Below are positions 23,376-26,182 of a stretch of DNA of 64,000 nt, piece after piece. The DNA lies in contig JAEUTN010000014.1 in the NCBI GenBank assembly GCA_016787895.1, positions 558,001 through 622,000 on the forward strand, written 5' to 3'. Source of the DNA: Bacteroidia bacterium (GTDB lineage: Bacteria > Bacteroidota > Bacteroidia > B-17B0 > Aurantibacillaceae). The notes beneath the pieces were generated by a model. The model had not been told where the DNA came from and did no database searches. It saw nothing but the letters and a program-made list of their open reading frames with translations. Numbering within the stretch: the first letter of the stretch is position 1; every line of letters starts with the position of its first letter. The translations under genes and the position numbers were made by a program.

Positions 23376-24449
23376 TCAGGCGTTTGCAGCTTCTTCGGCC
23401 AGCACCTCTTTGATTTTGGTTTCAATCTCTTCAGAGAGATCAGGATTTTCCATCAACAAAGCTTTCACCTGATCGCGCCCCTGACCTAATTTGGTGTCCT
23501 CGTAACTGAACCAGGAACCGGCCTTTTTAATAATGCCTTTCTCCACGCCCATGTCAATAATCTCCCCCATCTTGCTGATGCCTTCTCCAAATACAATATC
23601 AAATTCAGCCTGGCGGAAAGGTGGAGCCACTTTGTTTTTGATTACTTTCACCCTCACGCGGTTGCCGGTAACATTGTCCCCATCCTTAATTTGCGAAATG
23701 CGGCGAATGTCTAAACGCACTGTAGCATAAAATTTCAATGCATTACCGCCGGTCGTAGTTTCGGGATTACCGAACATAATGCCAATCTTCTCGCGCAACT
23801 GATTAATAAAAATACAGCAGCATCCGGTTTTGTTAATGGTGCCGGTGAGTTTACGCAAAGCCTGGCTCATCAGTCGGGCTTGCAAACCCATGCGGCTATC
23901 GCCCATCTCCCCTTCAATTTCAGCTTTTGGGGTTAAGGCCGCTACGGAGTCGATCACCACAATATCCACAGCCCCGCTGCGAATCAGGTTATCGGCAATT
24001 TCCAAAGCCTGTTCCCCGTTATCGGGTTGTGAAATCAAAAGGTTCTCGGTATTCACGCCCAATTTCTCGGCATAAAAACGGTCAAAGGCATGCTCCGCGT
24101 CAATAATGGCAGCTATGCCTCCATTGCGCTGTACATTGGCAATGGCGTGTATGGCCAAGGTTGTTTTACCGGAGGATTCAGGTCCGTAAATTTCCACCAC
24201 GCGGCCTTTTGGTAAACCACCAATGCCCAGGGCAATGTCTAAACCCAGGGAGCCTGTAGAAATGGCTTCCACCGGATCCACCTGGCTGTCGCCCAGTTTC
24301 ATGATGCTGCCCTTGCCGTAAGTTTTCTCGAGTTTATCGAGGGTCAATTGCAGGGCCTTTAATTTTTCGGCATTCACCGATTTTTTTGGAGTCGCGTTCA
24401 TAGATGCTTCAATTTCGTTGATTACATCGTCTGCGTTTTTCTTTGCCAT
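23376..24449 (-). CDS. recA: Recombinase RecA
   Basis: 357 residues. Walker A GPESSGKT (89-96), [64 protein letters not shown] and the acidic C-terminal tail are all present. RecA forms filaments on single-stranded DNA, drives homologous recombination and, where LexA is present, triggers its cleavage. It is a lone gene with a strong terminator. I saw no clear consensus -7 element or recognisable LexA-type palindrome just upstream. Confidence 0.98.
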
Positions 24450-24690
24450 GATATATACTTTTTAATTGTTACGCATTAATTTAAAGTTAAGCCCTTTTGT
24501 CTTCTCATCCCCTCTTTGTTTTCCACTTCCCCGCTTAACTTCTTCACAAATGTAGAGGGGGGGAATAGCAAAGTCTTGCTACGAATTATAGTATTCGGTA
24601 AAAATGCCGTGTTAATGGCGTCTGAAAAGGGAAAAAGGAAGCGTTTCTGGCATTGTACTTAGAGTTTTTCAATTGGCTTTAATTAATTGG
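24450..24690. other. recA upstream region, nothing recognised
   Basis: About 240 nt to the left of the structured element. It should hold the recA promoter, but I found no perfect TAnnTTTG in the right place. No open frame with coding character is present. Confidence 0.4.
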
Positions 24691-24952
24691 GCGCCCCCTC
24701 CGACGAATCAAAAAACCAAATTAATGTCCTTATGTTTTTTGATTGTCGGGGTCGGGCCCTCCGCTATAGTCCCGCAGCACTTTGCTGTGTTTTACAGGCT
24801 GCGGTGTCTTTTTGTTATCACAAAAAGCCTCCTCGCTCTTAAACACTACGCAAAGTGCCCGCGGGAGCTGTCGCTGCGGTCCCTGGCGCAAACCCCGGTA
24901 AGGCTGGTAACATCCTGCACATCTTTTATTCGGAGGGCCGTCTTAAATTTTT
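24691..24952. repeat. Structured intergenic element with nested inverted repeats
   Basis: GC-rich DNA unlike its AT-rich surroundings. It begins with a hairpin (24701-24716 with 24734-24748, 15 bp plus one bulge), followed by GGGGTCGGGCC. Three nested pairs follow: GGCCCTCCG 24755-24763 with CGGAGGGCC 24931-24939; GCACTTTGC 24777-24785 with GCAAAGTGC 24850-24858; and CTTTTTGT 24808-24815 with ACAAAAAG 24820-24827 around loop TATC. An alternative CCGCAGC/GCTGCGG pair (24772-24778, 24798-24804) competes. It may be an interspersed repeat, a structured RNA or a small non-coding mobile element. A short open frame crosses it but breaks the expected coding pattern. Confidence 0.65.
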
Positions 24953-25030
24953 TCATCTGAGAAAAATCATGTCCCCCTCCGGCAAATCAATTCTCTGCTC
25001 AGTACTTTTATTTCTAATTTCGTTAACACC

Positions 25031-26182
25031 ATGTGCAGCGTTAAATCCATATTTCAACTCTTGATACCTTTGTTGATCCTGTGCCTCATGGCCCCAAGCC
25101 TTAAGGCTCAAAAACCCGAACGGGTGTTGCGCGACTCACTTGACAACCGACTTGACGTAAGTTATTACCTCAGCAACCTGCACGGTTTTATACCGGTACC
25201 GGCCATCATCAGTGAACCTGCACTGGGAAATTTTGGAATCGTACTGGCCCCGGTGTTTATTGCCCCTCAAAAAAACAAAAACAATAAGGACCGCTTTCAT
25301 TTTCCCAGCATTACCGCCCTCATGGGTATGTACACCCTTAACAAGAGCTGGGCGCTGGGCGCTTTTCACATGGGATCTATGCCCAAATGGGGCCTGCGTT
25401 ACCGCCTGGGCGGAGCTTACGGGAGCATCAACATGGACTTCTACCGTGAAGTGCCCGCAATTGGAGAACAAGAATTTGAATTCAATTTTGATTTAAGAGC
25501 CTTGTTTTTGGAGGCCAGCAAAGACGTTTTTCGCAACCGAATTTTTCTGGGTGCCTCTTACCTTTATGCCAACAACAGCATTGCCTACAACAACCTTGTG
25601 CTGCCCAATGGCGTGTTTGAAGAAGAGGATTTTGAAAGTGCCATCGGCAACCTGGGCTTTTTTGCAGATGCCGATTTTCGCAACTCGATTTTTACTGCTG
25701 ATAAGGGCCTTCGCATTAAAGGCACCTACCTCATCAACCGCGACTTTACCGGCAGCGATTACACGTTTGACCGGGCCGAATTGTTTGTACACTATTTTCT
25801 ACAACCCGTGAAGCGCTTGATCAGTGCATTCAGAGCCGAGGGCATGGCCATTAGCGACGGGGCGCCCTTTTATTCTTACCCTTTTGTTTCCATAAGAGGC
25901 ATTCCTATTTTAAGGTATCAGGGAAAACAAACCCTGGTGTTTGAAACCGAACAACGTTTTGATATCACACCGCGTTGGAGTGCATTGGGTTTTATTGGAA
26001 GCGGCATGGCTTTTAATCAAAGCTCCTTTAACGATGAGCCTGAAGCCTGGCACTGGTCAGGAGGCCTTGGCTTTCGTTACCTCCTCTCGCGCTTGTTTAA
26101 TCTTCGGGTAGGCGTGGATGTGGCCAAAGGACCCGAAAATTACGCTTATTATATTGTGTTCGGACACAGCTGGAACCGTTAA
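25031..26182 (+). CDS. Outer-membrane beta-barrel protein, bacterial surface antigen (BamA/TamA-barrel) family
   Basis: 383 residues. A signal peptide (about 1-26, SLKAQ) is followed directly by a barrel with alternating strands. Recognisable stretches are ISEPALGNFGIVLAPVFI near the start, the central DVFRNRIFLGASYLY, and the terminal half FVSIRGIPILRYQGKQTLVFETEQRF, SALGFIGSGMAF and GGLGFRYLLSRLFNLRVGVDVAKGPE. This last set matches the C-terminal barrel of the surface-antigen family. POTRA domains are absent. It may act in outer-membrane protein or lipid handling. The downstream Crp/Fnr gene starts 10 nt later and is probably co-transcribed. Confidence 0.78.
   Translation: MCSVKSIFQLLIPLLILCLMAPSLKAQKPERVLRDSLDNRLDVSYYLSNLHGFIPVPAIISEPALGNFGIVLAPVFIAPQKNKNNKDRFHFPSITALMGMYTLNKSWALGAFHMGSMPKWGLRYRLGGAYGSINMDFYREVPAIGEQEFEFNFDLRALFLEASKDVFRNRIFLGASYLYANNSIAYNNLVLPNGVFEEEDFESAIGNLGFFADADFRNSIFTADKGLRIKGTYLINRDFTGSDYTFDRAELFVHYFLQPVKRLISAFRAEGMAISDGAPFYSYPFVSIRGIPILRYQGKQTLVFETEQRFDITPRWSALGFIGSGMAFNQSSFNDEPEAWHWSGGLGFRYLLSRLFNLRVGVDVAKGPENYAYYIVFGHSWNR

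Follow-up and report, generated by a model that had tools for sequence, protein, structure and literature searches.

The feature upstream of recA described here is one copy of a dispersed intergenic repeat of about 200 letters carried by Bacteroidota, a family that apparently has not been described so far. It lies in a 64,000-nucleotide stretch of a Bacteroidia contig (the window), and a pairing pattern almost devoid of wobble pairs gives good support to the view that its folding matters as DNA rather than as structured RNA. A sequence-only reading had drawn attention to positions 24691-24952, between recA and the gene across from it, on account of three nested stems (24755-24763/24931-24939, 24777-24785/24850-24858 and 24808-24815/24820-24827) with another hairpin to their left. 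The stems are present at these coordinates, and perfect nested stems of 9, 9 and 8 bp, judged in that reading to be unlikely by chance, occurred in none of 3000 dinucleotide shuffles. Folding of 24691-24952, which had been proposed as a check, gave energies far below those of shuffled sequences for both strands (z = -5.5 and -5.1 as RNA on the two strands, -6.1 as DNA). The left hairpin, also where it had been placed, belongs to this element as an optional module, and the two inner stems are part of the element as well, but the outermost stem is not: its right arm, 24931-24939, lies beyond the element boundary, and in a related genome (G013) the orthologous recA locus lacks it. The strong departure in base composition claimed for the region is seen against the nearest intergenic DNA (GC 0.51-0.58 versus about 0.37-0.43) but not against recA itself (about 0.42-0.57).

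Aligned copies define an element that, on the minus strand, begins with box 1 (TGCGYNAGSGATTGNAGCGGMAGCCC). Stems P1 and P2 come next, then the two core strands on either side of a variable hairpin (P3), then P2' and P1'. Box 2 (TTGNAGCGGAAAGC), which repeats box 1 directly, follows, and after it an optional hairpin module and a terminal box that is either GGCGCCCAAAT or CACGCCCAAAT. The long, imperfect hairpin P1-P2-P3 is flanked by two copies of TTGNAGCGGAAAGC. The parts of the copy in the window are:

24689-24889, minus strand (reference strand): whole element, about 201 bp, with ends that pair with each other; boundaries from aligned copies
24885-24889, minus strand: 5' closing arm of P0, GCGCC, pairing with 24691-24695
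24870-24889, minus strand: box 1, consensus TGCGYNAGSGATTGNAGCGGMAGC, from position weights of 103 copies; also found in genomes without the core
24859-24869, minus strand: 5' arm of P1, from per-sequence pair alignment and DNA folding
24838-24858, minus strand: 5' arm of P2, beginning GCACTTTGC, containing the stem arm 24850-24858; from covariation
24827-24836, minus strand: first core strand, GCGAGGAGGC, invariant in alignment A1, whose selection pattern itself demands GCGAGGAGGC
24808-24827, minus strand: P3, variable terminal hairpin with stem 24808-24815/24820-24827; loop and stem vary among copies
24799-24808, minus strand: second core strand, GACACCGCAG here, consensus AGACMCCGNAG, from aligned copies
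24777-24796, minus strand: 3' arm of P2, containing the stem arm 24777-24785; from covariation
24750-24776, minus strand: 3' arm of P1 together with box 2, which repeats box 1 directly (consensus GGCTNNAGCGGAAAGCNCGAC); from position weights
24697-24751, minus strand: optional hairpin module, arms 24697-24716 and 24734-24751; DNA fold z = -5.0
24691-24695, minus strand: 3' closing arm of P0, GGCGC, pairing with 24885-24889

Copies read side by side give the core on the minus strand as GCGAGGAGGC...AGACMCCGNAG with a variable loop between its strands, and both G-C pairs of the core helix are retained in 99-101 of the 101 rows found by the covariance model. Element length ranges from about 140 to 220 bp across copies. 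When folded as DNA, the unit 24689-24889 with three flanking bases on each side forms one closed two-armed structure (z = -8.0). Closure is a property of the family: the P0 ends are complementary in 51 of 53 copies, against 48% after permutation, through four pair combinations (a GCGCC start with a GGCGC end, a GCGTG start with a CACGC end, and two more). To the right of the element, positions 24930-24981 hold arms CGGAGGG/CCCTCCG around an A/T-rich inner stem that resembles a second, degenerate hairpin module, with a DNA fold z of only -1.4; the outer stem as first proposed made use of its left arm.

Searches of the window's own genome (G000) with a BLAST-type program found a copy at 87% identity adjoining an integrase gene on contig C20, together with several weaker copies, and a covariance model built from 22 copies found 11 clear ones there. 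The same model found at least 31 copies in G009, over 50 in G027 and likewise in G028, and copies in at least 15 of 60 related genomes, the counts for relatives being lower bounds in which the best candidates were scored. The core pattern matched in 8 of the 60 genomes and its reversed control in none; the outer frame, taken without the large core, reaches further, box 1 being matched in 34 of 60 genomes (its reversed control in one) and in 13 of the 24 sampled genera, all of one class. Most copies are intergenic (73 of 88, with 13 of 88 overlapping an ORF predicted to encode 100 aa or more) and they occur in every orientation relative to genes. Frame-bearing matches in a named genome collection are Bacteroidota, labelled Flavobacteriales, Sphingobacteriaceae, Bacteroidales and others. 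Exact-pattern matches outside the phylum have no outer frame and were judged to be chance occurrences in coding DNA; a single match among viral contigs, in DNA that on visual inspection is GC-rich and resembles coding sequence, was also put down to chance; plasmid and phage collections gave no match to the element. For all its spread, the family is described in none of the RNA or repeat collections searched, and no description of the element was found in the papers searched, a search limited to open-licence text. The alternatives first put forward, a structured RNA or a short repeat element, can be separated: the copies here and in relatives bear out the repeat, and the near absence of wobble pairs speaks against the RNA.

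That absence emerges from the copies themselves. Among 101 distinct rows, 96.2% of cells are paired and two-sided changes occur in 20 of 22 pairs, with 356 such changes observed against 107 in shuffles; sliding controls fall to 39-47% paired. The compensatory changes in the stems, whose absence (like that of further genomic copies) the sequence-only reading had regarded as fatal to its proposal, are real. Pairs were counted from per-sequence alignment with an equal penalty for every type of mismatch. The P1 and P2 stems contain 1256 Watson-Crick, 3 G.T and 1 A.C pairs, their common mismatches being G.G (17), T.T (15) and G.A or A.G (19), and P3 contains 193 Watson-Crick pairs and 1 G.T. G.U pairs are common in RNA helices. 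Together the three stems have 4 G.T against 1449 Watson-Crick pairs (0.3%), while 17 tRNAs of the same loci have 25 G.T in 365 (6.8%; Fisher p = 2e-14, calculated on cells that are not independent, the copies being related), and within the element G.T is not in excess over A.C, both counts being similarly low. Because G.T is almost absent despite strong covariation, the pairing appears to be kept at the DNA level. Covariation taken by itself would here have pointed, wrongly, to an RNA; the family is a clean example of this, and the wobble-pair test is applicable to other candidate structured RNAs. We read the upkeep of pairing as recognition of a DNA hairpin or as correction of quasi-palindromes by template switching while the DNA is replicated. 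The copies still have their conserved bulges and their mismatches in the core, and since template-switch correction alone would erase them, some recognition of the folded element seems to be needed beyond it.

These data have led us to favor, as the probable explanation, a dispersed, non-coding, extragenic palindromic DNA-hairpin element of Bacteroidota that is non-autonomous and REP- or MITE-like. In the model we propose, the folded form would be a DNA hairpin or cruciform that arises when the strand is single, for example on the lagging strand, and a DNA-processing enzyme acting in trans would recognize the core and boxes and copy or move the element. New hairpin modules would be inserted into existing ones, and we propose that the stems are nested because modules were inserted into one another in this way. 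One lineage would additionally carry the frame inside a conventional MITE, and the recA copy would be an old insertion, retained since its palindrome is now used or since palindromes maintain themselves. If an enzyme does act on the folded form, bacterial genomes would have one more way of copying hairpins. A 49-bp hairpin module related to the optional one of the window copy occupies an orthologous site (C20/C223) in G000, and G013 cleanly lacks it there, which supports either hairpin-into-hairpin insertion or palindrome deletion, in either direction; the modules at the recA locus also differ between these two genomes. It is unlikely, in our estimate, that the copies form a distinct class of folded DNA, mobile or functional, namely a multi-arm hairpin closed by P0, with a conserved mismatch core recognized by a Bacteroidota enzyme, modules inserted cleanly and without target duplication, and some copies selected at repair genes such as recA and dinB.

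The closest known kinds are REP/BIME repeats and MITEs. Like the REP, BIME and REPIN elements (PMC3733652, PMC6006769), the element is extragenic, imperfectly palindromic, composite and multi-copy (11 copies here and up to more than 50 in relatives), and its frame ends without target duplication. It differs in size (140-220 bp, against 20-40 bp for a REP unit), in having ends that pair mutually, in its conserved GCGAGGAGGC/AGACMCCGNAG core, and in that no cognate RAYT gene was found. Mobilization of a REP/BIME-type element by a Y1 (RAYT/TnpA-REP) transposase is a doubtful account of the family, although the conserved mismatches and nested composite layout of its palindromes, with frame ends lacking duplications, count in its favor, RAYT genes exist in the genus, and the Bacteroidetes RAYT subclass 2.6 is reported to go with "atypical secondary structures" (PMC6006769). 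Against it, the 53 aligned element ends have no GTAG or CGTC foot, being GCGYN/NRCGC, and the Y1 genes inspected are flanked by palindromes of their own rather than by the element. Repeats of the CGTC type are known without a dedicated transposase (PMC3733652, PMC6006769). Y1 (IS200/RAYT) genes are common in these genomes but were rejected as an evident partner, as 20 loci have no flanking copies and their palindromes are unrelated; the few elements at Y1 loci either lie at a distance of 2-3 kb or are small frames close to the end of a contig.

Several RAYT loci (L377, L378, L382, L389 and L391) mostly carry the subclass 2.6 motifs NH[LIV]H and YIH[QN]NP, and each such gene has palindromes of its own on its flanks, for instance CCGCAGGATTNNAATCCTGCGG; these may be the "atypical secondary structures" of PMC6006769. 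A lone IS200-like gene (G000:C2:73142-73486; L193:2538-2999) has short palindromes on its flanks, GCTCCGTAGGAGC/CGTCCCTACGGGAC, that bear no relation to the element.

Mobility of the frame was observed in G018, which contains about 47 near-identical frames. Comparison of 20 of them showed that similarity runs past the frame to terminal inverted repeats GGATCAATCGGAA/GGGTCAAGCGGAA, and 17 complete copies are bordered by an 8-bp target duplication (a mean of 6.9 of 8 matches, against 2.7 when permuted; 0 of 2000), demonstrating that the frame there rides inside a MITE; for the window-type element we infer mobility. Even with the G018 copies in its favor, it is quite unlikely that the family as a whole consists of conventional MITEs which a DDE transposase moves, leaving 8-bp target duplications, and that the window holds an old copy with decayed terminal repeats. 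Elsewhere similarity in aligned copies stops at the P0 ends with no terminal repeats beyond, and 62 copies from other genomes, those of the window's type included, show no target duplication at the frame ends (best z 2.5 among 392 settings, not significant), so that G018 is better explained as a MITE that captured the frame. The element shares with bacterial MITEs such as MITECca01 of Cardinium, also of the Bacteroidota (PMC9769881), a short (about 140-450 bp), non-coding, intergenic and mobile-like character; in contrast to the G018 variant, the unit common to all genomes has neither terminal repeats nor duplication, and its conserved part is the internal secondary structure. As the element departs from REP/BIME repeats, and outside G018 also from MITEs, in at least one tested feature, we place the element in the general kind of non-autonomous palindromic repeats.

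The copy in the window has the following neighbors, all outside the element:

23376-24449, minus strand: recA, ORF; orthologues 85-89% identical in same-genus genomes with a full-length match
24547-24554, minus strand: candidate -7 box of a recA promoter, TACATTTG, matching TAnnTTTG, which we take to be the Bacteroidota -7 promoter box
24578-24592: SOS-box-like palindrome GCTACGAATTATAGT; the palindrome recurs upstream of dinB, ruvB and the integrase gene
25031-26182, plus strand: gene across from recA, with sub-threshold similarity to the Omp85 family

The palindrome GCTACNNNNTGTAGC occurs upstream of dinB, the integrase gene and ruvB in this genome (G000:C2:74832, C20:1496 and C11:32493, in that order) and upstream of recA in many relatives, the recA version in the window being degenerate; it is probably the SOS box of this group. 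It differs from both published Bacteroidetes LexA-type motifs, CTAA-N5-TTAG and GGA-N5-TCC, and diverged palindromes have been reported as well (PMC8565304). Two of the three perfect genomic copies of GCTACNNNNTGTAGC lie within 150 bp of an element core, a nearness through which the motif was spotted and which makes the association a provisional one.

The recA copy is orthologous in G013 with one difference in about 130 positions (99%), while its flanks align in patches only, and two further orthologous copies are 93% and 95% identical. Fourfold-degenerate sites between the same genomes are 69-79% identical, so by sequence comparison the conservation of orthologous copies (93-99%) exceeds that expected of a dead mobile relic, a point against the reading we favor, although identity is also fairly high (83-93%) in the intergenic DNA next to the C20 copies. 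Of about 24 recA loci examined, those of G000, G013 and G034 have the core form upstream of the gene and that of G030 has a small form; this placement may reflect a function or simply a roomy intergenic region, and the recA copy itself is presumably an old insertion. A host function can be tested, given that copies lie close to SOS-type promoters and that the recA copy is almost the same in different species.

The near-identical recA copy with its diverged flanks and the placement of copies upstream of recA in three genomes, with the strong covariation and a GA-rich non-Watson-Crick core that looks like a recognition motif, could also be expected of a structured non-coding or cis-regulatory RNA, such as a recA leader, spread as a repeat. 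An RNA role is nonetheless disfavored and, we judge, distinctly improbable. The scarcity of G.T relative to tRNAs and the orientation of copies in all directions relative to genes argue against it, and the core form is at only three of the recA loci. Since the promoter-like TACATTTG and the SOS-like box intervene between element and gene, the element is probably upstream of recA transcription and outside the leader. No Rfam family was found in the region at gathering score, and the sole match at a lax threshold was sub-threshold, to an animal microRNA, and of no relevance. Like the Bacteroidetes structured RNAs Flavo-1, Bacteroidales-1 and 6S-flavo (PMC2864571), the element covaries and is lineage-restricted; it differs in having no Rfam match, almost no G.U and no excess of G.T over A.C. 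An SD-like GAGGAGG was considered as a ribosome-binding site and dropped, SD sequences being generally absent from Bacteroidetes (PMC3155529). A second recA-like gene (G000:C4:235813-236805; L452) is 71% identical to that of the window.

Most improbable is an attC-like recombination site of the integron-type tyrosine recombinase beside the C20 copy, for although a copy lies just upstream of this SOS-box-controlled integrase in G000 and G013 and the element, like attC, would be a folded single-strand site in which certain unpaired bases are conserved and the terminal part varies, no R/L boxes (RYYYAAC ... GTTRRRY) were seen in its aligned copies, and it is dispersed rather than arrayed and generally unlinked to an integrase. 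The enzyme, IntI/XerA-like (G000:C20:259-1461; L194/L247), was likewise rejected as an evident partner: it is present in genomes without the core element, and G009, a genome rich in the element, lacks a close homologue. Homologues of the integrase have in common a conserved palindrome of another type, located about 70-190 bp downstream (GTAGCGGGTATANNNNAGTTA). This integrase and those at L248-L267 have an SOS-like box upstream in several genomes and often a contig end on their 3' side, an arrangement that suggests chromosomal integron-like arrays in these Bacteroidota.
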